Shown here one piece after another: positions 27,093 through 46,343 of a stretch of 64,000 nucleotides of DNA. Made by a program: the position numbers and the translations under genes. Below the pieces are notes generated by a model, which was not told the DNA's origin, did no database searches, and was given only the letters and a program-made list of their open reading frames with translations. Source of the DNA: Eubacteriales bacterium mix99. GTDB lineage: Bacteria; Bacillota; Clostridia; Caldicoprobacterales; DTU083. The DNA lies in NCBI GenBank assembly GCA_038396605.1, contig CP121690.1, positions 2,694,356 to 2,758,355 on the forward strand. Direction: 5' to 3'. Every line of letters starts with the position of its first letter. Within the stretch, counting starts at the first letter, position 1.

Positions 27093-28819
27093 GCCAATTC
27101 CTCCTCTGTCAGCTGGGAAGCTGCGATGTCGTGGTAAATTCTGCTAGTCTTCAACAGTTCCTCATGTGTGCCTTCTGCAGCCATCTCCCCTTCATTCAGC
27201 ACGATAATCTTATCCGCATAGCGGATTGTGCTGATTCTCTGGGCTACAATCAGAACCGTTGCATCCGTGATTTCCTGCTTCAGACGCTTCCGCAGCTTTT
27301 TGTCCGTAGCATAATCCAGGGCGGAGAAGGAATCATCAAAGATATAAATTTCCGGATTCTTCACAATGGCGCGGGCAATGGCAAGCCGCTGCTTCTGTCC
27401 GCCGGATAGATTGCTTCCGCCTTCGGAAAGTATTTCGTTCAGGCCGCTTTCCTTTCGTGCAATAAATTCAGACGCCTGGGCAATTTCTGCTGCCCTCTCC
27501 ATTTCCTCTGTAGTCGCCTCTTTTTTGCCAATACGTAAATTATCTGCAATGGTTCCGGTAAACAGTTGGGCCTTTTGAGGGATGTAGCCGATCCGGTCGC
27601 GGAGAACCTGGATATTGTAATCCCGTACATCCACCCCATCAATCCGAATTCTGCCCTCGGTCACATCATACATCCTCGGAATAAGCTGCACCAACGTGGA
27701 TTTCCCGCTTCCCGTACTTCCGATAAAGGCCACAGTCTGTCCGGGAGATGCGGTAAAACTGATATTTTTCAGAATGGGTTCTTCAGAATCAGGATAGGAA
27801 AAGGTTACGTTTTCAAAACGCACTGTACCCTTTTCCCTCGTTTTGGTAACACCATTTTTCAGGTTTTCATCGATACCCGGAGTACTTTCCAGAACACGCT
27901 GAATCCGGCGGGCCGATACCGACGCACGGGGATACATGAGGAACAGAACAGCCAGCATCATGAAGGAAAACAAAATGTGAAACACATATTCGATGGATGC
28001 GCTCAGGGTTCCCACATCCAGCGCTCCAAGCCCGATGGATTTGCTGCCTTTCCACAGGATAACAGCGATCATGGTATTGAACAGCAGATAAAAACCCGGC
28101 TGGGAAATAGATACGATCCGGTACACCGTTTTGGATACGCCGCAGTATTCCCGGCTTACATCCCCAAAACGTTCGGACTGAAAGCCCTCATTTCCGAAAG
28201 CACGGATGACACGAAGTCCGGAAATACCTTCCCTCATATTTAAGTTGATTTTGTCCAGTCCCTGCTGCTGGGCGCGGGAATAGGGAATGGATTTACGGCT
28301 GATAAAGAACACTCCGAAAAGCAGTATGGGAATGACCAGCACAACCACCCAGATCAACTGGGGATTGGTTTTGACAATCAGGACGAACCCACTGACCGTC
28401 ATCACCGGAGTAATCAGGGCACTGCGCAGCATATTCTGAACGAAAAGCATAATCTGGTAGGCGTCGCTGGTAATGCTGGTAAGCAGCGAAGACACGCTGA
28501 ATTGATTAAACTCCGCGTGGGAAAAGCTCTGGGTCTTCCGAAAAGTGTCATTCCGAACGTCGCGGATGACATTGGAAGCTATGCGGCTGTTGGCGTAGGA
28601 CATACAGACTTCCCCGAGGCCTCCTGCCAGAATGACAGCCAGCATCAGCAGTGCCAGGGATAAAAGACGGGAGGAATTGCCCGTCATCAGGGAATCATTA
28701 ATAATATATTTCAACAGGGTGGGAACCCCCATCTGAATAAGCACAAAGCCCGCCACTCCCAAAAGACTGAGCAATAAGTATTTCCTGTAACGCCAGGTAT
28801 ATTTTAAAATAAGTTTCAT
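27089..28819 (-). CDS. ABC exporter half-transporter (degenerate Walker B partner)
   Basis: 576 residues: exporter membrane domain, Walker A GSTGSGKS, canonical signature NLSGGQKQR and Walker B IYIFDDSFSALD, where Asp replaces the catalytic Glu. The paired defects with the next gene are those of heterodimeric exporters such as LmrCD and BmrCD. Likely a drug or amphiphile exporter. First gene of the unit. Confidence 0.93.
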   Translation of the reverse strand: MKLILKYTWRYRKYLLLSLLGVAGFVLIQMGVPTLLKYIINDSLMTGNSSRLLSLALLMLAVILAGGLGEVCMSYANSRIASNVIRDVRNDTFRKTQSFSHAEFNQFSVSSLLTSITSDAYQIMLFVQNMLRSALITPVMTVSGFVLIVKTNPQLIWVVVLVIPILLFGVFFISRKSIPYSRAQQQGLDKINLNMREGISGLRVIRAFGNEGFQSERFGDVSREYCGVSKTVYRIVSISQPGFYLLFNTMIAVILWKGSKSIGLGALDVGTLSASIEYVFHILFSFMMLAVLFLMYPRASVSARRIQRVLESTPGIDENLKNGVTKTREKGTVRFENVTFSYPDSEEPILKNISFTASPGQTVAFIGSTGSGKSTLVQLIPRMYDVTEGRIRIDGVDVRDYNIQVLRDRIGYIPQKAQLFTGTIADNLRIGKKEATTEEMERAAEIAQASEFIARKESGLNEILSEGGSNLSGGQKQRLAIARAIVKNPEIYIFDDSFSALDYATDKKLRKRLKQEITDATVLIVAQRISTIRYADKIIVLNEGEMAAEGTHEELLKTSRIYHDIAASQLTEEELA

Positions 28820-28906
28820 AAAAGCACCTCGAAAATAATAAAAGCAGTGCCATGGCTGGAAAATGGTACTGACTGAGTATTATTATAAGGAAAATAGAGA
28901 ATGCCG

Positions 28907-29905
28907 TCAAGTTTCAGTTTCTTCAAGCGCCTTCTTCGGCCATGCGGAATCCCGAAGAATCGCTCTGCCGACTCCCACAAGATCCGCCTTATTCTCTCTG
29001 ATAATCCGGTCGGCAGCATGTGGATCGTTGATGCCGCCTGTTACGAGTACCGGGACGGAAACGGCCTGCTTTACCGCTTCCGACACATCAGAGAAATACC
29101 CCTGCACCTGTTCCATATTGTGTCGTACATAACCGGTTATGCCGCCGGATATATCAATGAGACTGATACCCGCCTGTTCAAAAGCTTTTGATGCCTCTAC
29201 AGCATCCTGAATACCATTGCCGCCCGGTGTGTCATCAATGCCTCCCAAACGGATCAATACAGGATAATCCTTTCCCACGGCCTCTTTTACAGCCCTTATT
29301 GTTTCCAAATGGATTCGGATTCTCCAGGAAAGATTGCCGCCGTACTCATCTGTCCTGTTATTTATCAAAGGGGAATAGAACTCATTCAGGAGATATCCGT
29401 GTGCAGAATGGATCTCTACCGCATCAAATCCCGCTTTCTTTGCCCGGCGGGCCGCATCGGCAAACTCCTGTACAACAGTCCGGATGTCAGTATGTGTCAT
29501 ACTGCGGTCGGCAAATTTTGCACCGTCTGAAAGAACAACAGATGGGGCCATTGTCGGATATCCGGTGATACTGCTTCGCGTATTTCCACCTGCATGATTG
29601 ATCTGGCAGGCAACCCGGACTCCATTTTCATGAATCACATCTGTCAGTTCCTTAAGTCCGGTCAACTTGTCATCGGAAGCGATCGAAACCTGCCTGTCAC
29701 TTGCTTTTCCATCCGCAGCAATAAAGCTATGCTCTGTAATGATCATTCCGAGATAACCGCCGCGGGATTTCTCGTCATAATAACGCAGCAACTTTTCTGA
29801 TATATTCCCGTCCTCATCTGAGCTCTCTGTTGCCATCGGCGGCATGACCAATCGATTTTTCAATTTCAGTTCGCTGATCTGGATTGCACTTCCCAGCGTT
29901 TTCAT
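28907..29905 (-). CDS. NADH:flavin oxidoreductase (Old Yellow Enzyme family), TIM-barrel only
   Basis: 332 residues forming an FMN TIM barrel: KLKNRLVMPPMAT at the start, the substrate-binding His pair in EIHSAHGYLLNEFYSP, and NRTDEYGGNLSWR. The phosphate-binding end is VLVTGGINDPHAAD and GVGRAILRDSAWPKKA. Multidomain relatives (BaiCD, 2,4-dienoyl-CoA reductase) add iron-sulfur and NADH domains that are absent here, so an external electron donor is likely. It reduces activated alkenes or similar compounds. ATG 29905 follows AAGGGGAT. Confidence 0.9.
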   Translation of the reverse strand: MKTLGSAIQISELKLKNRLVMPPMATESSDEDGNISEKLLRYYDEKSRGGYLGMIITEHSFIAADGKASDRQVSIASDDKLTGLKELTDVIHENGVRVACQINHAGGNTRSSITGYPTMAPSVVLSDGAKFADRSMTHTDIRTVVQEFADAARRAKKAGFDAVEIHSAHGYLLNEFYSPLINNRTDEYGGNLSWRIRIHLETIRAVKEAVGKDYPVLIRLGGIDDTPGGNGIQDAVEASKAFEQAGISLIDISGGITGYVRHNMEQVQGYFSDVSEAVKQAVSVPVLVTGGINDPHAADRIIRENKADLVGVGRAILRDSAWPKKALEETET

Positions 29906-30099
29906 CTGATCCCCTTCTTTCATAAATTTTTAACCGGGCAGGAGCATAAAAACTCTGTCTGCCCTACCGAGATAGCCTTTTCCCTGTCACAGGCATTCTA
30001 TCATAAGCTGAGGTAAAAAAGCAGCCTCTGATTTGTTTTTCTCATAATAACGAAAATCAGGCGCTCCGTACTCCAGATAAAATACATTGCTAAATATAA

Positions 30100-30146
30100 A
30101 ATGAAAGTGCTAATCCCCGGTTATGCTGGAAATTAGCACTTTCATT
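30100..30146. repeat. 15-bp perfect inverted repeat
   Basis: AATGAAAGTGCTAAT at 30100-30114 is the exact reverse complement of 30132-30146, with a 17-base loop. There is no T run, so it is not a standard terminator; it lies just after the last gene of the defence operon. The rest of 29924-30214 shows nothing recognisable. Confidence 0.6.
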
Positions 30147-30214
30147 CCGTAATAGAATGCCGAACTCGTTTCCTTTTCCATTCATCAACAATATACTTTA
30201 AATATTAAATCAGA

Positions 30215-30394
30215 CTATTTCCGATATCCACATTTTGGGCATACACCGTTTTCGTCCAACGCAACGCCACATAATGGGCGACGCTCTATATTCTTTTGCG
30301 GCTCGTATTCCTGGGTAGCACCATTGTCTCCGCTGGTAAATGTAATTCTGGCTAGATCCTTGACGGATGCCGGATCCAGATTTAACGGTGTCAA
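30215..30394 (-). CDS. 59-residue zinc-ribbon ORF after mcrC
   Basis: The frame starts at TTG 30394, overlapping the mcrC stop by four bases (TTGA), and ends RRPLCGVALDENGVCPKCGYRK. The three Cys with CPKCG look like a zinc ribbon. Two readings are possible: a translationally coupled small protein, or the true C-terminus of McrC displaced by a one-base indel in the nearby seven-A run. The sequence reads as natural protein (LTPLNLDPASVKDLARITFT), so it is unlikely to be chance. Confidence 0.6.
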   Translation of the reverse strand: MTPLNLDPASVKDLARITFTSGDNGATQEYEPQKNIERRPLCGVALDENGVCPKCGYRK

Positions 30395-31467
30395 AGCTTT
30401 TTTTCCGGTTTTCCGAAATATTTCTCTGCAATACCGTCCAGCTGTGCGGAGATGATTTTGAAATCCTTATTCAGGTCAAGAGTTCTTGCTCCTATCTGAT
30501 TACCGCCAATATTGAAGGAACAATCCGGGGCAATATCCTCATCTGTCCTGGCATACAGCAGTAATCCGGACACTTTCCCGGTATGATTTTTATCCTGATT
30601 TTTGACATAAGTAAAAATCTGATAAATGTTTCCTGAGATAAGAGTGGGTTTATCAAATCGCTTCTGTAGCGTATTGCCGTAATATTTTGCATCGATGATC
30701 AAAACAACATCGTCCTTCCGAAGAAAGATATCTGTCTGCATGACCGGAAGGAAGCGAATTGCCGTGTTTTCCCCGTTTTCATCCCTTACATCCCATTTTA
30801 TCTGAGCTGCTCTTACCTCCGAAAGGCAGGTGCAGTTCTGACGATAATATTCAAGAATAAACTTTTCATACAGTCTGGCCATATGCTCATCCGCGAAGGC
30901 GGCCATACGATATTTGCCTTTCTCCGTCGTCTGAAGCATTCCGTCAAGAACGAACCAGCAAATATTCAGGAGCATCTCATAGCTTCGGTTATTCCTCTGG
31001 TAATGGAGCTTGTTCCACTGTATTTTCGATGGCATCAGAAGATCTATGTCACCAAAAAACACAAGGACTTTTTTCAACCCGGCTTTTTGTTTCGCAGCTA
31101 CACCGGCATCCCGCACAAGACAGAACATAGTTGTCTTCAATACCTGATTGAAGATATTATTTTCTGAAAGCTCATCATATTCACAGGCCAGCTTTTGATT
31201 TCGCTGAACTCTGTTCCGGATTGTTCCCGACATATCAATTTTGCCGCGCATTGCAGCCAAAGTTTCGTTCCTGGGAACGTACTCCCGGTAAAGTCCCTGC
31301 TTCAGCTGCTGTGCTACGCCCCTATTAAGAATCGCCGCGAATAAGTCCTGAACATTTTCAAAATCCTCTGCTGCTATACTCTCGTAATTGGATTGTTTCA
31401 AAACCTGAAAAGCATAGGACAGCATATAATAAATATTCTTGATGAAGATCCCTTTATCTTCAGTCAT
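30391..31467 (-). CDS. mcrC: McrC-like nuclease subunit of a McrBC restriction system
   Basis: 358 residues from ATG 31467, which overlaps the mcrB end by eight bases. The N-terminal part begins GIFIKNIYYMLSYAFQ, as in many McrC proteins. A PD-(D/E)xK nuclease core has Asp246 in MQTDIFL and Asp259-Ala-Lys261 in LIIDAKYYG. McrBC systems cut DNA carrying modified cytosines or other marks; McrC supplies the nuclease and the stimulus for McrB GTP hydrolysis. The C-terminus is short, and the next frame may be its continuation. Confidence 0.9.
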   Translation of the reverse strand: MTEDKGIFIKNIYYMLSYAFQVLKQSNYESIAAEDFENVQDLFAAILNRGVAQQLKQGLYREYVPRNETLAAMRGKIDMSGTIRNRVQRNQKLACEYDELSENNIFNQVLKTTMFCLVRDAGVAAKQKAGLKKVLVFFGDIDLLMPSKIQWNKLHYQRNNRSYEMLLNICWFVLDGMLQTTEKGKYRMAAFADEHMARLYEKFILEYYRQNCTCLSEVRAAQIKWDVRDENGENTAIRFLPVMQTDIFLRKDDVVLIIDAKYYGNTLQKRFDKPTLISGNIYQIFTYVKNQDKNHTGKVSGLLLYARTDEDIAPDCSFNIGGNQIGARTLDLNKDFKIISAQLDGIAEKYFGKPEKKL

Positions 31468-33433
31468 CGAATACACCACGCAGGTTCTGTTCCCAGCGTT
31501 GCACCTTTGCCGGTTCGTCAAACCAATATTCCGACAACAACGGAAGGATATCAAATTCAACGATGGAGTGCAGCTGGTCTATGATACACGTCTCAGGTTT
31601 CAATCCGCAAAAATAGCTGTGGCCGATTCGGAATCCATTGCCCAGAGATTCATCCTCTGCAATTTCTTTATTCAGAGCTTTGATCTGTTCCATAAGGGTA
31701 TCAAATGTTTCACTGGCTAGTCCAGCCTGGTAGCTTCTGAAGCCTTCAGAACTGAATCCCGGTTCCATTTCAAAGAAACTGAAACGTCTGCGAAGAGCAT
31801 AGTCCATCATGGCAAGACTTCGGTCTGCCGTATTCATCATTCCAATAATGTATAAATTTTCCGGAACATAAAAAGGCAATTCATTATATACAAGCGTAAT
31901 TTTATTCTTCGGGCCTCGCTTATCGTTTTCAATAAGCATTAGCACCTCACCAAAGATCTTACTCATATTGCCTCGGTTGATTTCGTCAATGATAAAGAAA
32001 TAATCTTTATTAGGATCGTTGGCAGCTTTTTGACAGAACCTGAAGAAAACCCCTTTCGTCAGTTTAAAATCAGTGCCTTCAGGCCGGTACCCGAGCATAA
32101 AATCCTCGTACGAATAATTTTGGTGAAACTGCACCATCTCAATATGGGAATCATCCATTTCACCCATCATGGCATAGGCCAGCTTCTTTGCCGTGAAAGT
32201 CTTACCCACGCCCGGTGCGCCCTGCAGAATGATATTCATCTTATTGCTGAGTAAAGCTTTCAGTACATCAAAATGTTCCTCCGTCATATAAACTTTACCG
32301 AGGAAGTCTTTTTTTGTGTATTTTGGAACAACTCCACCCGGTATCGTATCAGCATACAATGGTATACCCGTCAAATCCACCTGATCCAGAGCGCTTGAAA
32401 GTTCATCCCGAATTCTCCATATGAATATGCCATCCGTGTGGCTGTCAGCATATTTGCCAATATAGAGAATTGGCCACCATTTGGAGTTCTCTGTGTCTTT
32501 TGTCATAACCGGGCAACCGGACTTTTTGGCGACTCTTCGCGCAAGCGCAGAGGAACCGACATTGTAGAAATTACTGCTCTCACCGTATTTAATGGAGAGT
32601 TGCTTGCAGGTGGCCTGTCCCCCGTAATCTTTCATTCGCTTTAATATCTGGAGGCTGCTCAATGTAAAGACAGTATTGTTGTTCAGAAGTTCTACCCAAT
32701 CCTTTACAGAAAGCCTGGGCGAATAATCTTTCGGAAACCATCTGCCCATATCATCAAGATAAAATCTACTCAGATAAAATCCCACATCGACTGTAAGGGT
32801 CTTGAACTTCGGATCCGGATAGCAACTTTCCGTCAACGCACTCTGCACCATCGCAACAACCCCTGCATCTTCGGCGATTGCTTTACAGATCTCATCATAC
32901 ATCTGAAATCCACCAGTCATATTGTCGGCAGAGCCATTTCGCTTCGGCTTATAATCTGCGGCAAGCTCTGTCGCTGCATTCTTGTATAGTTCATACTTGT
33001 AGATGTAATATTTATCCGGAAATCGAAGCCATAGATAAGTGCTGACAGCATTTATACTCTGATAATGATTCTTCCACGTTCCGTCATCGTATTTCGCACG
33101 GAGAGTTTCGGCGACGGACTGGAAATCGTCAACCCGCTCACCAAGATCACGGGATTTATCATAAAGATTGCGGAACATCTGCCTTGTTGCTTCATCATCG
33201 ACTTTCGCAAAGTTCAGAATCATGCCCCGGGGATAGACATATCCGGAAGTCAGCAGGTTATCGGTCTTATCCGTAGCGATCCTAAACATGTCTCCAAAGT
33301 TTGGAGCGTCTATATTCCAATTATCCTGAAAACACTTTACCGCCTCCCACTTGTACTTCTCGTCATTGAAATGGCCCGGAAAATACGTCTTGTATCCCTC
33401 AAGAATATCTTTTAATTTTTCGATGTCAATCAT
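31460..33433 (-). CDS. mcrB: McrB-like AAA+ GTPase of a McrBC restriction system
   Basis: 657 residues. The N-terminal 380 residues form a specificity region; within it, 315-345 (WWPILYIGKY...GIFIWRIRDEL) looks like a target-recognition fold. The AAA+ motor follows: Walker A GAPGVGKT (405-412), EDFMLGYRP, Walker B FFIIDEINRGN (479-489), and the McrB-specific MNTADRS (533-539) that binds GTP. GGAGG precedes the ATG. It is 85 bases from the ADP-ribosylglycohydrolase gene upstream, in the same direction. The N-terminus differs from E. coli McrB, so the modified target may differ. Confidence 0.92.
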   Translation of the reverse strand: MIDIEKLKDILEGYKTYFPGHFNDEKYKWEAVKCFQDNWNIDAPNFGDMFRIATDKTDNLLTSGYVYPRGMILNFAKVDDEATRQMFRNLYDKSRDLGERVDDFQSVAETLRAKYDDGTWKNHYQSINAVSTYLWLRFPDKYYIYKYELYKNAATELAADYKPKRNGSADNMTGGFQMYDEICKAIAEDAGVVAMVQSALTESCYPDPKFKTLTVDVGFYLSRFYLDDMGRWFPKDYSPRLSVKDWVELLNNNTVFTLSSLQILKRMKDYGGQATCKQLSIKYGESSNFYNVGSSALARRVAKKSGCPVMTKDTENSKWWPILYIGKYADSHTDGIFIWRIRDELSSALDQVDLTGIPLYADTIPGGVVPKYTKKDFLGKVYMTEEHFDVLKALLSNKMNIILQGAPGVGKTFTAKKLAYAMMGEMDDSHIEMVQFHQNYSYEDFMLGYRPEGTDFKLTKGVFFRFCQKAANDPNKDYFFIIDEINRGNMSKIFGEVLMLIENDKRGPKNKITLVYNELPFYVPENLYIIGMMNTADRSLAMMDYALRRRFSFFEMEPGFSSEGFRSYQAGLASETFDTLMEQIKALNKEIAEDESLGNGFRIGHSYFCGLKPETCIIDQLHSIVEFDILPLLSEYWFDEPAKVQRWEQNLRGVFDD

Positions 33434-33518
33434 TTCTGCGCCTCCAGCTGTTTACTCATCTGGTACCCGGAAAGTTTGTTCAAATGCACTGGAATAATAT
33501 GATATCAAATCTTCTGTT

Positions 33519-35393
33519 TCAATCATCTTCATCCTCCTCGTCCCCGACGGATCCAGTCAACAGGTTCGATACGGACGGCTCCTCTTTGTCGCTCACCAGG
33601 CAGATAATCTCTTTTGTCTTTTCAAGCGGGTATGGCGTATCGTCCCAATGGCAGAACTCAATGGTCCTGACCGTTGCTTCCCGCTCGTAATTGCTTTCTC
33701 CGACGGGCACGACGACCTCATCGCCGATATCAATTCGCAAATCAGCGGTGCGATAGTGATAGATCTTTCCGCCATCCGGGAACTCAACGCCGCAGTATTT
33801 GACCTCGCCCTTTTTCAGCGCGGACATAAAGCCGGAAAGACCGACAATGCCGCCAAACCCAAACGACCGGATAATGGCATGAATGGCATCGATGAACACG
33901 ATAAATTGCTTTTCCGGCATGTGGGCACGGTCGAAAATACCCTTGTGAACGACAGTCTTGCCGCCTTCGTACTCAGCTTTCAATTCATAAACGTTGAACA
34001 CAGAGCTTGTTCCGCTAAAGGACCGGGCATCATCTTGCCAACCTTCCGCGTCAAGGCAGTCCTCCATTATGCTCAGGGAATCTTCCCCGATCCCCAAAGC
34101 CGCTTCAATTTCATACTGATGGGTGACGCTGCCGCCCTCAGGTATGCTGTTCTTAATGACCACCTGCTCATTGGTTACGAGTAATTCACTTGTGCTGCCC
34201 CCACGGATAGGCTGCAGACTGACCCTGACCTGCTTCAGGACAGGCCTGTCCGGCTCGGGTTTACGCTTGTCGTCAATCGTTTTCAAACGACGGAGCCATT
34301 TTGTAATATATCCCTCGCAGATAAACGTTTCCAGCACGCCCTCCGTAAAGTGTTCAGCACGGTGTGCGCCAAGGATCAGAGCAAGAACCGTTTGCTCGTC
34401 AAGTATATCAACATCGGCGGTTTTCATGGATTCTTCAGTCCACTTCAAGCCTTGCTTTTCGAGAATAGCTTGATAATCCTTCAATCCATATTCGGGATTC
34501 AATTGAGCAAAGATATAGAATTCCCTATAAAAGTCCTGCCAATTGTCCCTGTCATCCAGCTTACCAATATATTTCGTAATGAAATCAAATTTTCGGTTGG
34601 GTTTACCTCTACGGGTCGCTTGTTCCCATTCGCGACAGATGCCGCGCAGCTCGTCATCAAGATAGGTGAGTGCCTTGCGCTTCAGCGGGAATGGTATACC
34701 ATAATATGCTTCGGCGATGGCACCGGTTATCGCAGCAAGTGTGTTGCTGTCGCCGCCAATGCTGATCGCATTTCGTATGGCATCTTCAAAGGTTATGGAT
34801 TCAAGGAACGCCACGATCGCCCGCGGCACGGTTTCCTGGCAGGTTTCGCTGAATTGGCAGGTGTCACGGATACCGTCAAGGGTGAAGTCCAATTTGTAAT
34901 AATCGCGTTCGATCCGCTCACGGATTTCCTTTTTCGTCGCACCGCTGCGAGCCAGAAAGATTGCGATGGTGACCGCCTCGGCACCCTTGATGCCTTCTGC
35001 ATGATTGTGTGTTACTTCCGCGACCTTTCTGGAGAGCAGTTTTGCCTCTTCCTCGGTCCTGGCGATGAACCCGCACGGCGAAACATGCATGGCGACGCCG
35101 CTCCCGAAGCTATAGTACGACTTCGAGTCGTCGCTGAAAATCCAGCGATTGAACATACTGCTAAAGCCGCAATCCGGATGTTTGTGTCCGATTTCCTGCA
35201 TAAACCCTGCAGCCCGTTCACCAAAGCTTTCCCAATCGCCTTCACAGGCAAGGATCGCCTTTGCAATGGCAAGGGTCATGATGCTGTCATCCGTGACGAA
35301 GCAACCTGCGGCCAACAGGTCGAAGTTCTTGCTCCTATAGTTATTGAATTTAAAACGCGACCTTACAATGTCGCCGATGATTGCTCCGAGCAT
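33519..35393 (-). CDS. ADP-ribosylglycohydrolase fused to a long C-terminal region
   Basis: 624 residues. The first 265 form an ADP-ribosylglycohydrolase: start MLGAIIGDIVRSRF, metal-binding TDDS (34-37) and GGDSNTLAAITG (213-224). These enzymes remove ADP-ribose from proteins or nucleic acids. Residues about 265-375 resemble DUF6508 (EQTVLALILGAHRAEHFTEG). The remaining 250 residues are unlike anything I recognise and end in an acidic tail. The gene sits between the helicase and mcrB in a defence island, so it may reverse or sense ADP-ribosylation during phage attack. ATG 35393 has AGGAGG. The 148-base gap before it contains only a possible 11-codon relic (DPDGIAVEFSA) of a glyoxalase-type protein. 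Confidence 0.88.
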   Translation of the reverse strand: MLGAIIGDIVRSRFKFNNYRSKNFDLLAAGCFVTDDSIMTLAIAKAILACEGDWESFGERAAGFMQEIGHKHPDCGFSSMFNRWIFSDDSKSYYSFGSGVAMHVSPCGFIARTEEEAKLLSRKVAEVTHNHAEGIKGAEAVTIAIFLARSGATKKEIRERIERDYYKLDFTLDGIRDTCQFSETCQETVPRAIVAFLESITFEDAIRNAISIGGDSNTLAAITGAIAEAYYGIPFPLKRKALTYLDDELRGICREWEQATRRGKPNRKFDFITKYIGKLDDRDNWQDFYREFYIFAQLNPEYGLKDYQAILEKQGLKWTEESMKTADVDILDEQTVLALILGAHRAEHFTEGVLETFICEGYITKWLRRLKTIDDKRKPEPDRPVLKQVRVSLQPIRGGSTSELLVTNEQVVIKNSIPEGGSVTHQYEIEAALGIGEDSLSIMEDCLDAEGWQDDARSFSGTSSVFNVYELKAEYEGGKTVVHKGIFDRAHMPEKQFIVFIDAIHAIIRSFGFGGIVGLSGFMSALKKGEVKYCGVEFPDGGKIYHYRTADLRIDIGDEVVVPVGESNYEREATVRTIEFCHWDDTPYPLEKTKEIICLVSDKEEPSVSNLLTGSVGDEEDEDD

Positions 35394-35541
35394 AACAGTC
35401 CTCCTGTATCAATGCCTGAATACTTGCAGCCGGCTGTAACAAGTCAATAAATGACACCTTATTCAATGCACAATCCCACTTTCTTATTTGTAAAATCAAG
35501 CACTGAATTCCACAGCAATCCCATCGGGATCAATTCATCCC

Positions 35542-38500
35542 TTACAGGTCAAACAGTTTTTTCATTACTCCCTCAAGTGTTCCGCTCTTTGCATACTCCA
35601 ATGTGTCGCATAGCTTAATGTTGTACTTATCAATATGGATCTCATCACTGAATCCAAGAATATACCTTAGGCAAATCCGGTAGATGATTTCCGTCGGTGC
35701 ACAACCATATACCTGTTTTGCAAAGATATGATTCAATCTTTCCGCATTATCAGGGTATAAAGCTTTCATACACTTGCTCTGGTACAGGCGGGTGACAATC
35801 TCTGTGATGTACATGCCTGACTTCATGTAAAGGTCAGCAAACGTATTGTTCGGATCATCGAAGCATCTGGGATTCTCCTGCTCCAGGCGATCAACCATGT
35901 CCTTGACTACGTGCTTTGGCGTGAAGATCTGGTTTGTTTTCTGTGGCGGAATATAATCGAAGATGTCACCTTTGCTGTCGCCGCTGAAATAATCGGCAAG
36001 TTCCGTGCGCTTCTTCATGAACTCCTGGATGGCATCATTGAACACGACCTCATCGAACAGATGTCCGTTGAAACGCTTCTTGTGCTCCTCGTCTCGGATC
36101 TCATTCCCATTTTCGTCCTTCTGGTAGTAATCACCGCCATCACGCAGCAAGCGGAACTGAGCCAAGGTCACGCCTTCTCCGCTCTGTGGATTAACAGTCA
36201 CTTCCCAGAATACGGCAGCCGGCACGAGCGTGTTGAAATTGGCGAGCGTCGTGTTCTCATCCCCATAAGCCATAAGAAATGCGGGTATGGTACGGGAGAA
36301 TCCGCGTAGATGATCCCTCACGCTTCCCTCAATGGAGTCCTTCTGCGTGTTGAGCTTTTCCGTCTCGACTGTCTCCACGATGGTTTCAGCGGCTTTCTTG
36401 ACAGCCTCATCATCATGAAGCTTCTTCTGCATGTTCTCCACCGTGTCCTTATAGCCCTGAAGCCTCTTCTTCGTGTACTCATTGTCGAGTCTTGAAATTT
36501 CCGACATGGAAGCACCGGACTTCTGTGCCTCGGAGATCTTGTCGTCACGTTCTTTGACGAGCTGGTGATCGCGGATGGTGTAATCACCGTATTCCTGGTT
36601 GACTACAGTGTCCGTGGTTTCCTGAATTTTCCGCTCCAGCTGGTTTTGCGTGGATTTCTTCAAGTCACGCCCATACTGCTGACGCGCAGTCTCGATGAGC
36701 GTGCTCGCTATCGGCTTGCTGAATTTCTCTCTGAGTTCCTTCAGCTCATCTTTCTTCGGATTCTTCGCATGCTGCTCCGTAATATCAGTAACCGCCTGCG
36801 TAAGTTCTTTATCCACATCACTATAGACCTTGTCTCCGAAAAGTTCACGTGCTGTGCCAATAACCTGCTCTTTCGGAATCTCAACTTCACCTTTATCATT
36901 CAGATTCAGCCCGTCCGCCGTATTTTCATCCATGTCAACAGGCGTAAGCGTCTTAGGCTCCTCAATTGCCTGCATTCCATTGATAAGGTCGATGATCTCC
37001 TTTGGTGCACTAAAAATACCGGAAATGTTGGTGAAAAGGAAGTTTGACATGAAACCGCGCTCCACGACTTCTTTAGCATGGATGTGTCGAGGAATCGTGA
37101 GAACGGACTCGGCATCCAGTTCGATCATAGAGCCCTGATCATCCTCACCATAGACAGGGAAGAAATTCAAAAGCTCGCGCACATGCTGCTTACGCTGGTC
37201 GAAGTCTCCCTTGTCCCCTGATGTTTCCGGAATCAGATCATTGGCAAACTGCTCGAATATAGTCAGTGTACGCGCCGGATCAAAGTCAAAGACATAAGCG
37301 TTCTGCTTCCTGTAGAAACCCTGCGCGTCGTGGAACAGGCATGGATTCTGTGCGCGGAAAGCGGCTTGCATGTACAGTGCCGGACTCGCCATGTTAGAAA
37401 GCATAAGAACTGCCGTCCACTCCGGGATCGTGATCCCGGTCGTCAACTGGCCAACAGACAGGGTAATGGTCTTATCATCTTCTTTGATGGCCTCGGTGAC
37501 GCGATCGAATGCCTTCTCATTTTCGTCATCGTCATCCAGCTTGCCGTCACCGGCAGCGAGGATAATCTTATAATCCTTGAACACCGGATGCAGTTCAAGC
37601 TTCTTTGCCAGAGCCTTTGCGCTCGCCACACGGTTCAATAGCCAGAACGTGTGCTTCAGTTCATTTCGCAGTTCCGATGTAGAGAACGGGAACTTCTCCT
37701 GACATGTCAGTGCATCGAGAAACCTGTCCACATCCGTGTCATGTATAAACTTGCCGGATTCGTTCGTCTTGAAGAATTCGTTCAGGTCAAACGCGTATTC
37801 CTCAACATCATTGTCTGCAAGCTCAATGCCTTGCTTCACCTTATTGCGGACAATATCCGACATCTGGTATGTAAACAGACTGAGCCGTGGAAGGTTTTCA
37901 TACGGATTCTCTATCTCGCTGGAATCATCCCAATCACGCTTTTTCTTCTGCTCGTCCGCATATGTCCAGTTGAAAATCGCATCATCCGCAAATTTGTCGC
38001 TTGCCAATGCCTTAAACGGTGTTCCAGAAAGATGAAGCGTCCACTTGCGATGAATATGACTGAAGGCTGTATCCGTCTTGTAGGTATCCACGCCTTCATG
38101 AGCCTCATCAACAATGAGAATGTCCCAGTTTAGGCCTTTTTCTGCGCTTACTTCTGATAACTTGTCATACTGCCCGCCGAAATAGATGGAACCTTTCAGA
38201 TCCTGCAAGCTCACAAACTCAATGCATCCTTTGATTTGGTGGTGTTCATCCATCAGCCTATCAAGATACTCCTGACGGCTCATCACATATTTTTTATCCT
38301 TGATGCCGTCCACACTGCTGACAAACAGATAGCCGGACTGCGGACCGAAAAACGTCTCATAGTCCGAATACCATGAGTTCGCAATCACCGGGCGGTTCGT
38401 AACGATGAGAATGTTCGTTGCATCAAGTCTCTTGCACAGATCATAAGCTGAAAGTGTTTTCCCAAAACGCGGCTTCGCATTCCATAAAAATTCACCATTG

Positions 38501-38946
38501 CTGTGAGACTTGAAATAATCAAGTGTCATCTCAGCAGCTTTGTTCTGCTCGTCGCGGAGCTGATACGGAATGACAGCGTCCGCGTCATCATCGGAAACAA
38601 CGCCGTGATTCTGGGTAAAATCGAAAAAATTACCCTTTGCGGTGTTTGGCTCAATGCGGAACCACTCCGTACCTTCTTCTCTGGAAACGCTAAGCTTCTT
38701 AAGATAGGCATGAAAGTCCTTATCTGTAAATGTTCCGAACGGTTCCGTCATGTATGCAGCGCGCAGGTGCCACCACGTTTTATGCAGCACACCAACTGTA
38801 TGTGTCTGCTCTTTAATGCGAGTCTCAACCTCCCGCTCTGTAAATCCGATCTTTGTCCAGCCGTCATGCGCTGGCACTCCCGGCGTCGTGTACGCATAGC
38901 ATTGAGGAGTGACTTTTGTGGCTGCTTTAATCTTGATTGCTGCCAT
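35542..38946 (-). CDS. GIY-YIG / DEAH helicase / MTase-like restriction protein
   Basis: About 1,134 residues. Residues 17-110 form a GIY-YIG/T5orf172-type nuclease domain (CYAYTTPG...WTKIGFTEREVETRI). A superfamily 2 helicase follows: Walker A-like NAKPRFGKT (157-165), DEAH (281-284), SGTPF (308-312) and LTTGITIPEW later. A long charged coiled-coil region comes next. The last 170 residues begin QIFTPKHVVKDMVDRL and have DLYMKSGMYITEIV, like the N-terminal part of an adenine methyltransferase with a degraded AdoMet motif. It follows the Eco57I-like methyltransferase gene with stop and ATG sharing one base (TGATG), so the two act together, probably as the cutting and modifying arms of one restriction system. 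Confidence 0.9.
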   Translation of the reverse strand: MAAIKIKAATKVTPQCYAYTTPGVPAHDGWTKIGFTEREVETRIKEQTHTVGVLHKTWWHLRAAYMTEPFGTFTDKDFHAYLKKLSVSREEGTEWFRIEPNTAKGNFFDFTQNHGVVSDDDADAVIPYQLRDEQNKAAEMTLDYFKSHSNGEFLWNAKPRFGKTLSAYDLCKRLDATNILIVTNRPVIANSWYSDYETFFGPQSGYLFVSSVDGIKDKKYVMSRQEYLDRLMDEHHQIKGCIEFVSLQDLKGSIYFGGQYDKLSEVSAEKGLNWDILIVDEAHEGVDTYKTDTAFSHIHRKWTLHLSGTPFKALASDKFADDAIFNWTYADEQKKKRDWDDSSEIENPYENLPRLSLFTYQMSDIVRNKVKQGIELADNDVEEYAFDLNEFFKTNESGKFIHDTDVDRFLDALTCQEKFPFSTSELRNELKHTFWLLNRVASAKALAKKLELHPVFKDYKIILAAGDGKLDDDDENEKAFDRVTEAIKEDDKTITLSVGQLTTGITIPEWTAVLMLSNMASPALYMQAAFRAQNPCLFHDAQGFYRKQNAYVFDFDPARTLTIFEQFANDLIPETSGDKGDFDQRKQHVRELLNFFPVYGEDDQGSMIELDAESVLTIPRHIHAKEVVERGFMSNFLFTNISGIFSAPKEIIDLINGMQAIEEPKTLTPVDMDENTADGLNLNDKGEVEIPKEQVIGTARELFGDKVYSDVDKELTQAVTDITEQHAKNPKKDELKELREKFSKPIASTLIETARQQYGRDLKKSTQNQLERKIQETTDTVVNQEYGDYTIRDHQLVKERDDKISEAQKSGASMSEISRLDNEYTKKRLQGYKDTVENMQKKLHDDEAVKKAAETIVETVETEKLNTQKDSIEGSVRDHLRGFSRTIPAFLMAYGDENTTLANFNTLVPAAVFWEVTVNPQSGEGVTLAQFRLLRDGGDYYQKDENGNEIRDEEHKKRFNGHLFDEVVFNDAIQEFMKKRTELADYFSGDSKGDIFDYIPPQKTNQIFTPKHVVKDMVDRLEQENPRCFDDPNNTFADLYMKSGMYITEIVTRLYQSKCMKALYPDNAERLNHIFAKQVYGCAPTEIIYRICLRYILGFSDEIHIDKYNIKLCDTLEYAKSGTLEGVMKKLFDL

Positions 38947-40937
38947 CACGCCATCTCCTTTACATGTGATTCTATGAAATTGATCTCCTTTTCATCAAGC
39001 CCGTACTTGCGGTAAAGCTGCAAGTCAACCTCGTGAACGGATTTCAACCAATCGATGTCGGAGGATGAGGTAAAGTCTTGAAGCGGGACATATGACCATT
39101 TATCTTTTGTATTATCTTGTGTAATTTTCAAAATACCAAGCATTACTCTGGCAAATTTACTCTGCACATACTTAAGGCAATGCTCCGCTTCTCCTGAAGT
39201 ATCAAAAGATCCTATGGATAAAAATGTTTCAGTAGCCCCGATTATGGGCTCCCCGATTATGGGTGTAGAAAGTACTTCACCGAGTGCACCACTTCCATTG
39301 GCTTTTGGTATAAACACTTTATATTTGTAAAAACTCTCTGGAACATCCTGATAGTCTTTTCTTCCCCAACAATAAATTCTTTTTCCTGATACAAGGCCTA
39401 AGAATTTCACGTATTCATAATCATCCGAGGGCTTATCCTCAAAAAAGACAATATTTATAAGTTTCTTAAAAGCTCCAGCGCCTACGTCCTTTTTGTGTCC
39501 CTTAGACTGAATTTCAATTATTTCTGGGTGTTCTTCCAGAGCCTTATCTGAAAGTTTGTATACACCTCTGCCAGAAATGATGGTACTTAAAAAAGCATCG
39601 GACAATGGCTTTACCTTTTTTAGAATGGAATTAAGCTCAGGAAATGATGTAAAGATTTCAATTGGAGCATATTTCACATCACAGTCATGATATGTTATCG
39701 CAACTCCTCCTTTAATATCCGTATTAGGAAACACAGCAGTACTGTTTGCTTCATATTCAAGAACTTTAAAATGCTCATCATTAAGCATTTTCTCGTTCCA
39801 TGCTTTAGGTGTACTGCCAGCATTAAAAAGGAAACGTGCTGGATGAATAAGTTCTACTTTATCAGCGACTTCATATGCCGCATTCATAAACTGGTTATAT
39901 ACAGGTTTTGCAAAATTCTTGTTGCTGCCGGAATTTTCAAAGTCCTCGTTATACGGTGGATTGCCAATAACGAAATTAAAAAGTTTTTTGCCCATGACTT
40001 TCATCTCCTTAAGCTTTTTGAAGAGAATGGAGTTGTTCTTTCTCCAGTTGTATATCTTACAGGGTATGGCCTCGGGTTCTTCATCTGCCATATCCGTCAT
40101 TTCAGAGTACATATCGAAAAACGTCATCTGCCGGAATTCCTCGTACAGCTTTCCAAGGGGTACTGTGTCCTTAAGGCCATCCATCTGCCAGATATTCCAT
40201 ACAATTTTGTTCACGATCGTTTGCAGAAGCTTTTCGTCCGGTTCTTTATCCCAACGCTCCCTGTAATAATCGATGAACGTCAGCAGCAGGTTGATTCGCG
40301 CTATCAGAAGATTGTCCCCTTGGTACTCATACCCATAGGATGCTTCGAATGCCCGGATCGTCCACTTCACCCATTCATCATAGTCCCTGGCATTTTCATT
40401 CACGATTCGGAGTTTCCGATCCATCTGTCCGATTCTCCGTTTCGGTGGAACGATGAGTTCTCCGGTCGAGACATCATACCGGGAAACAAGGTAAGGTGCT
40501 TCACCGCAAGTAATTTCCAGCCGTCTGGAGTCCACGTAGTGTTTCCATGTTTTGCGCTTCGGAAACTCAATCGGTTCTTCGATAACCGTCCATGTATGGT
40601 CATCGTTCTCTACATTGAATACGTCTTTCCTGCCGAACCATTCTTCATCACAATAATTGTTCATCAGGTTGCACAGCCATGCCGGGGTGAAAACCTCGGC
40701 CTTTTTTCGTGTGCGCTCCTGCTGCGCTTCCTGTGACTTCTGGATTCTCGGCTTGATGATGTCCGCGTGCTGCAAGAGAAAGCTGCGGCTTATCTGTTCC
40801 TTATCTGTGAAGTCGTCTCCCAGCTTATCATAGGTTTCGGTCGCCCAGATGATGTTTTTCTTTGTCGATTTATTCTTAAGAAGCAAGTCCAAAAGAGGGG
40901 CTACCGGACTGCTCTGAATATCTATCAGCTTTTTCAC
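38946..40937 (-). CDS. Eco57I-like N6-adenine DNA methyltransferase
   Basis: 663 residues starting at GTG 40937 after AGGAGGG. The entry motif EVFTPAWLCNLMN (81-93) and the catalytic NPPY (326-329, in FVIGNPPYNEDFEN) identify an Eco57I/type IIG-like adenine methyltransferase. The usual glycine-rich AdoMet motif is replaced by EITCGEAPYLVSRYD. The C-terminal 250 residues (GRGVYKLSD..., YKVFIPKANGSGALGEVL) look like a target-recognition domain. It protects host DNA and sets the recognition site for the partner helicase-nuclease gene that follows. Confidence 0.9.
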   Translation of the reverse strand: MKKLIDIQSSPVAPLLDLLLKNKSTKKNIIWATETYDKLGDDFTDKEQISRSFLLQHADIIKPRIQKSQEAQQERTRKKAEVFTPAWLCNLMNNYCDEEWFGRKDVFNVENDDHTWTVIEEPIEFPKRKTWKHYVDSRRLEITCGEAPYLVSRYDVSTGELIVPPKRRIGQMDRKLRIVNENARDYDEWVKWTIRAFEASYGYEYQGDNLLIARINLLLTFIDYYRERWDKEPDEKLLQTIVNKIVWNIWQMDGLKDTVPLGKLYEEFRQMTFFDMYSEMTDMADEEPEAIPCKIYNWRKNNSILFKKLKEMKVMGKKLFNFVIGNPPYNEDFENSGSNKNFAKPVYNQFMNAAYEVADKVELIHPARFLFNAGSTPKAWNEKMLNDEHFKVLEYEANSTAVFPNTDIKGGVAITYHDCDVKYAPIEIFTSFPELNSILKKVKPLSDAFLSTIISGRGVYKLSDKALEEHPEIIEIQSKGHKKDVGAGAFKKLINIVFFEDKPSDDYEYVKFLGLVSGKRIYCWGRKDYQDVPESFYKYKVFIPKANGSGALGEVLSTPIIGEPIIGATETFLSIGSFDTSGEAEHCLKYVQSKFARVMLGILKITQDNTKDKWSYVPLQDFTSSSDIDWLKSVHEVDLQLYRKYGLDEKEINFIESHVKEMA

Positions 40938-40955
40938 AAACGGAGCTTCCCTCCT

Positions 40956-41171
40956 TTAAGCCTGTTCTTTATCTTCCGTGTCGTTCTCGTCTGATGCGCC
41001 GCCGGATCTGATCCATCCGTCAACTTCGGACAGCTTGAATTTCCAAAACCTGCCGGCCTTATAGTCAGGCATATTACGCTTATTGATCCATTGCAGGATG
41101 CTTTCGCGTCCGACTCCGAGATATTCCTGTACTTCTTTAAGTGTCGACCATTTTTCTATGTTCTCATCCAC
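40956..41171 (-). CDS. Small helix-turn-helix (excisionase/MerR-type) protein
   Basis: 71 residues. The core WSTLKEVQEYLGVGRESILQWI and then WKFKLSEVDGWIRSG is an excisionase-family winged helix, common as the first gene of restriction islands. GTG 41171 was chosen because GGAGGAG lies six bases upstream; the ATG at 41186 overlaps that site. It ends 18 bases before the methyltransferase and may control the island. Confidence 0.85.
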   Translation of the reverse strand: MDENIEKWSTLKEVQEYLGVGRESILQWINKRNMPDYKAGRFWKFKLSEVDGWIRSGGASDENDTEDKEQA

Positions 41172-41679
41172 GGGTCTCTCCTCCATCGCTCGTATGGAAT
41201 ATAACATTAATTCTTATATTGAACTCCAATCTATGGTTAGGGAAGCAGTTCTCGCCATCAGTGTCCTGCATTTCCCACTTGTTTCCGCCCATGCCATTCT
41301 TTATCCCCGTAATTCTGAATGAACCAGATATGACGGACGATCTCATAACAGGGCTGCATCATGGCTTCTTCCGCTCATATCTACTATGATATCATCGCCA
41401 GAATATCGTGGACCGCGCAAGTCTTCCGTCTTTATCTGCTCGTCTCATAGGAACGTCTGACAGACCGGCCATACCGAATCGTTCACATCGTCCGCCGGAC
41501 TCGTCACAAACAGGCTGAACTGCACAGCTTCTTAAGAAACTCGTAGCTTTTGATGCCGAGCTCCTCCCGGTACCTGATTCTGAGCGTTTCATCTGTTCCC
41601 CGGTACCTGATGCTTCCCCGATACTAAAGGCAGTTGCTTGGAAGAGCCCTGATGAAAACAAAAGCAGACTTCTAATTTC
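41172..41679 (-). other. Long leader between defence promoter and first gene
   Basis: About 500 bases without a convincing gene. On the minus strand ATCAGGTACCGGG occurs twice, 30 bases apart. An open stretch there reads ETLRIRYREELGIKSYEFLKKL before a stop, which looks like a gene fragment I cannot assign. An 89-codon frame at 41392-41661 has no ribosome binding site or recognisable motif. Confidence 0.4.
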
Positions 41680-41708
41680 ATTATAAGCATTTGACAGATA
41701 ACCGTCAA
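41680..41708 (-). promoter_or_regulatory. Promoter of the defence island
   Basis: On the minus strand TTGACG (41703-41708) and TATAAT (41680-41685) are 17 bases apart. TTGAC and GTCAA form an inverted repeat (TTGAC-N8-GTCAA) across the -35 box, a possible repressor site. Confidence 0.65.
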
Positions 41709-41727
41709 CTACATAGAGGTTAAAGAT

Positions 41728-43600
41728 AGCGTCAATTTACTGTAGGGAAAGAAAGAATAGAGACATCCTGAAATATTCTTACTAGCAACAGTGGTCTTGA
41801 TTGATTTCATTAATTTTAACAGCAATCAATCTTGTCAGCTGCATTTATTCCACGATCTGCTTGACAACGAGCCTCTGCCGGTGTGGCTTACGGCAGATGT
41901 CGGCAGCAGCCATCTCTAACAGCGGGATAGGCTTTGGAGCGGTTGCTGCCGTACCTCAATGCTACCACACCGACTTCTCGTTATCAAGCAGCTTTCGCGG
42001 CATAAACGCTTGATCTATGTCGTCCCGGCTATTAAAAACGCCATAACGAGCTTTATGAAGGGCCTAATAGCGTATTCCGGCCATACTCCTCATCTCATTA
42101 AACAGCCCTGTCTTTTTCCCCATGGTAATTACAGTTGGGCTGCTACTCCATGAACCAGCATATCTGCTTTCTGATGATTTCCTTACTTCCTTGATTAATT
42201 CATCCTGCAATTCATGTTTCCTGTTCTCCTTCTCCTTAAGCTTCTGTGCCATAACCAGGTCATAGATCCTGCCGCCATTTTTCTTATATACGATAAGTTT
42301 GGACATCCTGGCAACACCTTTTTCAGACCATCCCTTAGGCCTGCTGCTTAGCCTGCTTGAAAACACATGGCTTATATGACCTTCGGCACTGCATCCTATC
42401 AGTTCATGGCCCTTATCAGCCTTTATCTCTATTCCATGCCAGTTATTCAATATGTACCGTCTGGCATCCTTAACTGCCTTCCTCTTCGTTTTGGAAACCG
42501 TTCGTTTGAGGATCTTCTTGAAAACATCCTTGACCATGTCCTTGTCCGGCCAATCCAATGCATCCTTCAACTCCTGATAGATGTCTCCATCGTTTAAGTG
42601 TGCAGTCGCAGTTATCATATATTTCTTAAGATGAAAATTGTCCAGCACAAACTTGCTTTTGGGAATCCAGTCAAGCCCGGCCTTAATCCATGATGCCCCA
42701 TCCCCGGAAAGGTATATGGTTTCAATGAAATCCATGTTGTACTGCTTGTCTATATATTCTATGACCTCCAGCCACAGATCCTCACTCTCATCATACATGC
42801 CGCCAAAATATTTAACGTTTTTAAGTCTGGTCCTCGTTTGGCTGCTTTTTTCGGGATCTACGCCTTCATGAACATAAACCAGCCTGGGCATAGCTATCTT
42901 GCTTTTATCGTCTTCTCCCTGCAGGGAAACATGATCTTCATCTGCTTCAACATACAGTATCCTGACATCCCTCTTCTTGTCCACCTTATGCTCATGTTCG
43001 CTGATCTCAAGGTTATGTATTTTATCCATAACAGCCTGCTTGCTTATTTCATCCATATATCCGGCTCTTTCTCCACCTTTCCTGTAGCTGCTGTCTATGG
43101 CCTCTTCCACCACATTGATCACCACATCTGCACTCACTCTGTCATGTGGCTTAAGACCAACAAGCTCATCAACGAGATATTTCCTTTTGCCACCACTCTT
43201 TGGCTTAAAATACGTTCTATTATACTTGATCGTTCCAAAGGTCGTTAAGATCCCTGTCTCATCTTTCCTGACAATCTCCCAATTGTTTTTCCTGACCCCG
43301 GACTTTCGAAGCTGTTCATCCATCCCCTCAAGAGTCTCCACCAGTATATTCCGACCAAGTTCAAACAGATCCTCCTGCAGCCCCAGAGTCAGTTCCGCCA
43401 GATCCTTACCTTCCCTTAAAAATTTTCTTACCTTATTTTCTGTTTTTCTTGCAAACTCGTTAAAATCTTGTATACTGTACATGGAAGGTGGCACCCTTTC
43501 TTGATATTTTTGTTGATGATCAATATTTTAGCAGGATGCCACCTTCTTTTCAATCCTTATGGTAATTTATTACTCTTAATCCCTACGGTAACTTTACGCT
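41728..43600 (-). mobile_element. ISLre2-like insertion sequence
   Basis: About 1.87 kb. Imperfect terminal inverted repeats are visible at 41728-41759 and 43569-43600 (AGCGT-x-AA-x-TTAC-x-GTAGGG on each end, read inward). It contains one transposase gene. Between the left end and the transposase stop, 41760-42063, there is no intact gene; a minus frame shows a fragment (MAAADICRKPHRQRLVVKQIVE in part). It lies about 20 bases upstream of the defence-island promoter. Confidence 0.7.
42064..43482 (-). CDS. ISLre2 family transposase
   Basis: 472 residues starting MYSIQDFNEFARKTENK. The family blocks are VRILYVEADEDHVSLQ, YLSGDGASWIKAGLDWIPKS and FVLDNFHLKKY, with the DDE-type acidic residues, then HVFSSRLSSRPKGWSEKG near the end. 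The length fits the family. The gene is open throughout, so the element may still be active. The longer GTG start at 43494 has no spacing from its AAAGG. Confidence 0.9.
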   Translation of the reverse strand: MYSIQDFNEFARKTENKVRKFLREGKDLAELTLGLQEDLFELGRNILVETLEGMDEQLRKSGVRKNNWEIVRKDETGILTTFGTIKYNRTYFKPKSGGKRKYLVDELVGLKPHDRVSADVVINVVEEAIDSSYRKGGERAGYMDEISKQAVMDKIHNLEISEHEHKVDKKRDVRILYVEADEDHVSLQGEDDKSKIAMPRLVYVHEGVDPEKSSQTRTRLKNVKYFGGMYDESEDLWLEVIEYIDKQYNMDFIETIYLSGDGASWIKAGLDWIPKSKFVLDNFHLKKYMITATAHLNDGDIYQELKDALDWPDKDMVKDVFKKILKRTVSKTKRKAVKDARRYILNNWHGIEIKADKGHELIGCSAEGHISHVFSSRLSSRPKGWSEKGVARMSKLIVYKKNGGRIYDLVMAQKLKEKENRKHELQDELIKEVRKSSESRYAGSWSSSPTVITMGKKTGLFNEMRSMAGIRY

Positions 43601-43668
43601 AACAATTAAAAAAAAGCCACGGACAGTACAACAAACATATACATCCCAGGAAGATAATATTGATTTCA

Positions 43669-44259: not shown

Positions 44260-44292
44260 GCCACCACCTCCATTTCTGCTTAGTATATCATA

Positions 44293-46341: not shown

Positions 46342-46343
46342 TG

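Follow-up and report, generated by a model that had tools for sequence, protein, structure and literature searches.

Two restriction modules side by side in a clostridial genome, one pairing a two-part methyltransferase with a helicase that ends in a probably SAM-blind half-lobe

A run of seven genes in Eubacteriales bacterium mix99 (GenBank assembly GCA_038396605.1) is best explained by two restriction modules that are unrelated and simply lie side by side. The genes occupy positions 30,215 to 41,171 of the stretch that was analysed, a 64,000-nucleotide window of contig CP121690.1 (positions 2,694,356 to 2,758,355) to which all coordinates below refer. The first module pairs an Eco57I-type N6-adenine methyltransferase (MT, 38946-40937) with a protein joining a GIY-YIG-like nuclease to a superfamily 2 (SF2) helicase (HEL, 35542-38949). 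The second consists of the AAA+ subunit McrB (31460-33433) and the nuclease subunit McrC (30391-31467). Between the modules lies a gene for a DraG-like ADP-ribosylglycohydrolase (ADPRGH, 33519-35393), and a small helix-turn-helix (HTH) gene (HTH17, 40956-41171) and a 59-residue open reading frame (ORF; 30215-30394) stand at the two ends. The account that we favour, with moderate confidence, is that the modules are independent and that MT-HEL is an ATP-dependent restriction-modification (R-M) system, in which a C-terminal lobe of HEL would dock on the catalytic half of MT and so recruit HEL, and in which exchange of that half would change the specificity. A first-pass annotation had instead proposed a layered operon: one transcript would supply modification, restriction of unmodified DNA and the McrBC attack on wrongly modified DNA, with ADPRGH as an accessory.

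The separation of the modules rests on a survey of 98 loci that encode a relative of HEL. Eighty of these came from GTDB contigs (80 of at least 593 stretches encoding a relative) and 18 from searches of the class, family and order. The loci are not independent and include near-copies (L012/L042, L045/L075, L046/L128, L130/L131 and L129/L138/L161), and loci that are broken or cut (L022, L024, L038, L051, L070, L139 and L144 among others) were counted as listed, unrepaired. At least one part of MT was found within 6 kb of HEL, or inside HEL itself, in 92 of the 98 loci, and in five of the six loci without such a part the sequence starts at HEL or no more than about 115 bases from it. The proposal that methyltransferase and helicase form a restriction pair was thus borne out as a conserved R-M pair. 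HEL itself was present in 15 of 391 genomes of the class, the window's own included (E up to 1e-60), and judged by sequence MT-HEL appears to be a real and widespread GIY-YIG R-M family.

The remaining genes gave a different picture. Downstream sequence was available over at least 2.1 kb at 84 of the 98 HEL loci and over at least 5.2 kb at 70, and ADPRGH adjoined HEL at none of the 84. The sole ADPRGH matches in HEL loci were one of 25% identity at a distance of 8.6 kb (L058) and one of 36% to the C-terminal part, about 7.6 kb upstream (L103). McrBC lay within 10 kb of HEL in two of the 98 loci, 3.8 kb downstream in L029 and 7.8 kb away on the opposite strand in L046. Seen from the other module, McrB was found in 26 of the 391 class genomes, the window's own among them, and we examined 20 McrB loci, which represent 18 of the 25 further genomes that had a match. 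McrC was present at 16 of these loci (L107 ends inside McrB, and L124-L126 show none), and ADPRGH, MT, HEL and the 59-residue ORF were found at none of the 20; nor did the 59-residue ORF have a relative at any of the 98 HEL loci. The near relative L027 shares the HTH gene, MT and HEL with the window, and the DNA similarity stops at the HEL stop codon; a blastn search with window positions 30001-35541, which hold the ADPRGH-McrBC stretch, gave no match in L027 or in L033, the other of the two nearest relatives.

Because of these counts, and because the similarity to L027 ends after the HEL stop, the seven genes look, on sequence grounds, like three or more units stacked locally, and taken as a system the island most probably reflects a chance stacking of neighbours. 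The genes of the window are tightly spaced and share one direction, as the layered operon would have it, but the rarity of ADPRGH and McrBC at HEL loci, the absence of the other genes from all 20 McrB loci and the end of the L027 homology oppose it, and we consider it very improbable. In the loci searched, the MT-HEL and McrBC sub-pairs recur and the full combination does not, an outcome that the first-pass annotation had itself named beforehand as arguing for a chance island; the survey thereby removes the supposed layered defence operon.

Within the first module, the methyltransferase is built of two halves, MTN and MTC, whose boundary among relatives falls near window residues 311-320. MTN (40005-40937) is a lobe of SAM-binding (S-adenosylmethionine-binding) type with motifs X (FTP), I (TCGEAP), II (YGYE) and III (QMDG) and without NPPY; it was assigned from an AlphaFold2 (AF2) model, fold matches and residue counts in 80 sequences, all of which keep the SAM-site residues G145 (80/80) and E204 (E or D, 80/80). 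MTC (38946-39995) is the catalytic lobe, with GNPPY at residues 325-329, followed by a target-recognition region, as delimited by Pfam Eco57I, AF2, VIA, an identity profile and the G+C content at third codon positions (GC3). The Eco57I match spans the MTN/MTC junction in the window. AF2 modelled the window's MT as a complete, CamA-like methyltransferase (pLDDT 86.9, pTM 0.80), and the VIA comparison of residues 62-647 of this model with CamA (7lt5) gave a Z of 20.1 at a root-mean-square deviation (rmsd) of 5.7 over 415 residues. Further fold matches were MmeI (5hr4, Z 18.3), BrxX (17.6) and LlaGI (5ffj, Z 17.0), while a sequence search of the PDB with MT gave no usable match.

MTN and MTC form one gene in 37 of the 98 loci and adjacent separate genes in 26, and further variants exist. 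The split and the extra pieces might simply reflect frameshifting or degeneration of an ordinary methyltransferase gene, and some loci are indeed broken (L038, L051, L139 and L144). Yet the separate genes occur in several phyla, most MTC genes begin shortly before NPPY, and unrelated genes can separate the halves, so that we find this reading scarcely credible. Such unrelated genes separate MTN from MTC, or MTC from HEL, in L010, L037, L053, L055, L060, L080, L085, L097 and L099; we take them to be RhuM-like, nucleotidyltransferase plus HEPN-like, DUF559-like, DUF1016-like, toxin-antitoxin-like, Abi-like and DUF262/GmrSD-like.

HEL carries, in order, a GIY-YIG/T5orf172-like nuclease (about residues 16-121), an SF2 motor (about 125-617), a helical middle and the KSG lobe. 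In the window the nuclease matches PDC-S57 over residues 26-121 and the motor matches ResIII at 8.2e-11, and the relatives in L025 and L020 match T5orf172. VIA placed HEL beside RadD (Z 17.9) and the motor part of LlaGI (Z 17.9 over 188 residues), and aligned LlaBIII (4xqk) to residues 128-1135 of the HEL model, thus into the KSG lobe, at an rmsd of 17.1. The PDB sequence search with HEL found UvrB only. The KSG lobe itself, recognised from alignments, residue counts and AF2, comprises the last 150 residues of HEL (986-1135; 35545-35994) and had no match of its own in the Pfam, PADLOC and NCBIfam scans. It contains motif X (TP) and a variant of motif I, D-x-Y-M-K-S-G, and it stops where motif IV (NPPY) would begin, which is the very point at which MTC starts.

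We scored 103 KSG lobes, namely those found by similarity to the window's lobe. The position of the motif-I glycine is K in 102 of them, the following S is kept in 102 and the G in all 103, and the position of the motif-II acid is A in 102; among shorter ORFs that bear the lobe, all 22 of the 24 that could be scored likewise lack both the motif-I glycine and the motif-II acid. From these SAM-site counts and from the AF2 and fold matches of MT, we take MTN-MTC to be the methyltransferase and the KSG lobe to be a conserved half-lobe that is probably SAM-blind. A rival arrangement would make KSG-MTC the working methyltransferase, with KSG binding SAM in a non-canonical way and MTN as an accessory or activating subunit. 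Its attraction is that KSG and MTC are covalently joined in a group of loci that we call clade A and in L019 and L135, with MTN standing alone in clade A and L019. The missing glycine and acid, which MTN keeps throughout, speak against it, as do the recurrent fusion of MTN to MTC and the AF2 model of that fusion, and we regard it as rather improbable. A stricter form, in which KSG and MTC make up the sole functional pair and MT by itself is no methyltransferase, was dropped in view of the AF2 structure of MT and its fold match.

The range of fusions bears on how the lobes came to be distributed. HEL, KSG and MTC form a single protein in L019 and L135, and in L019 the Pfam Eco57I match crosses the KSG/MTC junction. 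In L098, L100 and L134, MTC lies directly downstream of HEL-KSG. In clade A the helicase has no KSG; the lobe is fused to MTC in a single methyltransferase gene, which usually has a separate MTN gene as its neighbour. We found this architecture in L025 and in 22 of 40 viral loci; MTN is in view in 21 of these viral loci, and one of the 22 has a broken gene. We built a tree of the helicase core with 115 rows of a possible 139 (138 loci and the window), omitting loci whose architecture was unclear or whose motor match was short and assigning the architecture labels by hand. The fused or split label requires at least 21 changes on this tree, with the starred branches forcing 10 for the fused label, and therefore the joining and splitting of MTN and MTC recur. 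L100 and L134 lie near the base of the clade that we label displaced, and L098 groups with three fused-type rows.

These placements suggest an order of events in which a whole KSG-MTC gene was followed by HEL-KSG-MTC, then by HEL-KSG with MTC apart, and finally by MTN-MTC. We offer this order as an inference, since the root is arbitrary and the tree search was quick. Several features of the tree count against it: the long-branch warnings that accompanied the search; L164, which lies apart on a very long branch while full support unites the other 22 of the 23 clade A rows; L019 and L135, which come out basally in the displaced clade, whose remaining members are joined at a support of 94 that is not starred; and L020, L021 and L155, also HEL-MTC fusions, which form a separate deep group.

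We next consider MTC as the part that sets specificity. Between L027 and L033, identity is 97% in MTN and 95% in HEL, and falls to 73% in the catalytic part of MTC and to 38% in its recognition part, the drop in DNA similarity being bounded at about 8950-9880 of L027. In the window, GC3 is 0.60 in MTN, 0.33 in MTC and 0.58 in HEL. Among the 64 loci with all three parts, GC3 is lower in MTC than in HEL in 62, and MTC deviates more than MTN does in 59. The contrast between L027 and L033, together with this GC3 deviation, indicates that MTC behaves like an exchangeable specificity cassette, as far as sequence comparison can tell. A second MTC copy occurs in L036, L066 and L076; it is incomplete in L036 and L066, and the two copies in L076 are 58% identical. 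The copy in L036 (L036:1946-2818) is a truncated MTC-like sequence in opposite orientation upstream of MTN-MTC-HEL, and may be a remnant of specificity switching.

The favoured account of the first module would then run as follows. MT alone would be a full N6-adenine methyltransferase, with SAM bound in MTN and with NPPY and target reading in MTC, and would methylate self sites. KSG would dock on MTC, sharing it or competing for it with MTN, and would thereby bring HEL to the target, where unmodified sites would start translocation and cleavage by HEL; specificity would change through a swap of MTC. If KSG does dock on MTC, whether a site is protected or cut would depend on which half-lobe completes the shared enzyme, and a change of specificity would take one recombination step and leave modification and restriction coupled. 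A more specific version, in which MTC is completed by rival half-lobes, by MTN to give the methyltransferase or by KSG to give the restriction enzyme, with the same jointly swappable specificity, we put forward only tentatively.

Several observations weigh against docking or against the pairing itself. In a covariation test, residue pairs with z>3 made up 0.08% for MTC-KSG and 0.19% for MTC-MTN, compared with 0.21% for the control of MTC and helicase core. This is a weak test (70 of 113 loci with all parts, Neff 61), and with no signal for either pairing it leaves the docking step unproven. The structure models are single chains, and that of MT was made without KSG, so competition and simultaneous binding look alike in them. 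KSG may bind SAM non-canonically after all. In the sixth of the loci that lack a methyltransferase part, L071, 5 kb upstream of HEL hold no MT match, and in L064 the MTC match is missing. The missing KSG-MTC covariation also suits a further alternative, in which KSG is a structural cap or relic that does not touch MTC, MT and HEL meeting through other surfaces, and this alternative gains from the finding that MT by itself forms a complete fold. K, S, G and T are, however, identical in 102-103 of the 103 lobes, which exceeds what a relic needs, and the lobe is continuous with MTC in L019 and L135; we think the cap or relic unlikely, though a serious competitor of docking.

The 3' part of the stretch would hold an ordinary type IV-like, modification-dependent McrB-McrC pair, preceded by an unrelated ADPRGH. 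The annotation of McrBC was confirmed as an intact type IV-like pair (PF07728, PF10117, with NF007277 above cut-off). McrC scores 379.7 bits against NF007277 (cut-off 338), and McrB, with the Walker A motif GAPGVGKT and an AAA_5 match at 3.8e-25, matches its own family NF008457 at 5e-94, below the cut-off. The 59-residue ORF, which ends in CPKCGYRK, is an ORF prediction without a Pfam match.

ADPRGH is 624 residues long. Pfam ADP_ribosyl_GH matches residues 27-233 at 7.8e-27, and a further stretch resembles DUF6508 at a score that misses the Pfam cut-off. It was found in 41 of the 391 class genomes, own included. Matches elsewhere cover the N-terminal hydrolase alone, none passing residue 290 of 624 except the window's own gene. 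Pieces of the C-terminal region occur in 16 of the 391 genomes, again including the window's own, and in the order-level relatives G017 and G018 they adjoin a hydrolase; relatives of the C-terminal part also occur within ORFs of 514-525 residues in G069, G347, G137 and G381. The same genome encodes a second, stand-alone ADPRGH (L026:9693-10688), with 57% identity across the first 256 residues. No relative of ADPRGH turned up in a scan of viral sequences. A linkage of ADPRGH with McrBC was considered and dropped, their listed places in the 391 genomes never coinciding outside the window and none of the 20 McrB loci containing ADPRGH.

The seven ORFs lie, as had been described, all on the minus strand with small overlaps and gaps. 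The overlaps are 1 base between MT and HEL if HEL starts at the ATG at 38946 (4 with the GTG at 38949), 8 between McrB and McrC and 4 between McrC and the 59-residue ORF; the gaps between neighbours are 18, 148 and 85 bases. The ATG start of HEL is favoured because the second residue, M, is invariant across 16 aligned sequences. As for the claim of one strong promoter, the best sigma-70-like site (TTGACG-17-TATAAT, 11/12 match) ends 509 bases upstream of the HTH start, but such sites occur at chance level in 29900-42100 (21 observed, 20.5 expected in shuffles), which leaves the claim weakly supported. A scan of 27000-47000 against Rfam gave no match. HTH17 is of excisionase/MerR type (Pfam HTH_17, 1.7e-10); it stands beside MT-HEL in only two of the 98 loci, L027 and L033, so that the idea of a conserved HTH gene as part of the system was abandoned. 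In L027 (7194-8009) it forms the rear part of an in-frame fusion, preceded by about 218 residues from another ORF. Upstream of the seven genes are an ISLre2/UPF0236 transposase (42064-43494), an HTH protein whose second half is weakly desulfoferrodoxin-like, below the family cut-off (43669-44259), and a protein with AAA and VWA domains (44293-46353) without a match at E up to 1e-40 in the 12 other genomes of the family. An empty-site comparison with these 12 genomes found no close match of the two flanking proteins at a comparable place.

Among known systems, McrBC (type IV), which cleaves modified DNA in a GTP-dependent reaction, shares with the window the McrB AAA+ protein and the McrC nuclease in overlapping ORFs, and nothing that we found sets the window's pair apart except the downstream 59-residue ORF. 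For the first module, PADLOC offers partial matches: HEL and MT match different parts of REase_MTase_IIG (PDLC03626), while under MTase_II MTN matches PDLC03390 and chains of MTC type match PDLC03375, so that models which carry the names of separate type II methyltransferases each match one half of a single enzyme. Among described gene sets, the closest is DnmA-YeeB-YeeC of Bacillus subtilis, with Vibrio homologues, which in the available part of PMC9973331 is a conserved cluster of an N6-adenine methyltransferase, an SF2 helicase and a T5orf172/GIY-YIG protein. The same three functions are clustered in the window; the methyltransferase of that cluster is MmeI-like, and MT matches MmeI 5hr4. 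The difference is that nuclease and helicase are separate genes there and one protein here, and that part of PMC9973331 mentions neither a KSG-tailed helicase nor a split methyltransferase for the cluster. The available part of PMC12898733 concerns a system unrelated to MT-HEL. A literature search over titles and the beginnings of abstracts found no description of a methyltransferase half-lobe on a helicase tail, and one over titles and abstracts found no coupling of protection and cutting through a shared half-enzyme.

Type I R-M enzymes have an HsdR/HsdM/HsdS layout. Like them, the window's system family has conserved subunits on either side of an AT-rich specificity part that can be exchanged, and insertions of unrelated genes occur between the subunit genes. 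In contrast to them, it has no separate HsdS (no HsdS-type Pfam match among the window proteins scanned), and recognition lies within the catalytic half of the methyltransferase. Type ISP enzymes join nuclease, helicase, coupler, methyltransferase and recognition domain in one polypeptide, and they cut DNA once two enzymes have translocated over long distances and converged. According to the accessible part of PMC4666363, they are single chains with an Mrr-family nuclease. LlaGI and LlaBIII share with MT-HEL an SF2 motor and an N6-adenine methyltransferase with a recognition domain, and both window proteins match their structures; the ResIII match and the VIA match to LlaGI (Z 17.9) identify the motor of HEL as the translocase type. 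They differ in that the window has two chains from two ORFs, a GIY-YIG-like nuclease (no Pfam match to an Mrr-family, PD-(D/E)XK nuclease was found, and the HEL N-terminus matches PDC-S57) and a second lobe of SAM type. Single HEL-MTC chains were seen in L019, L020, L021 and L135. For the coupler that carries Type ISP motors over into the methyltransferase, the comparison gave the LlaBIII alignment to HEL residues 128-1135, with its rmsd of 17.1. Since MT-HEL has neither the single chain and Mrr nuclease of Type ISP nor the separate HsdS of Type I, we filed it under neither of the two; by analogy it would work most like these enzymes, while being built differently.

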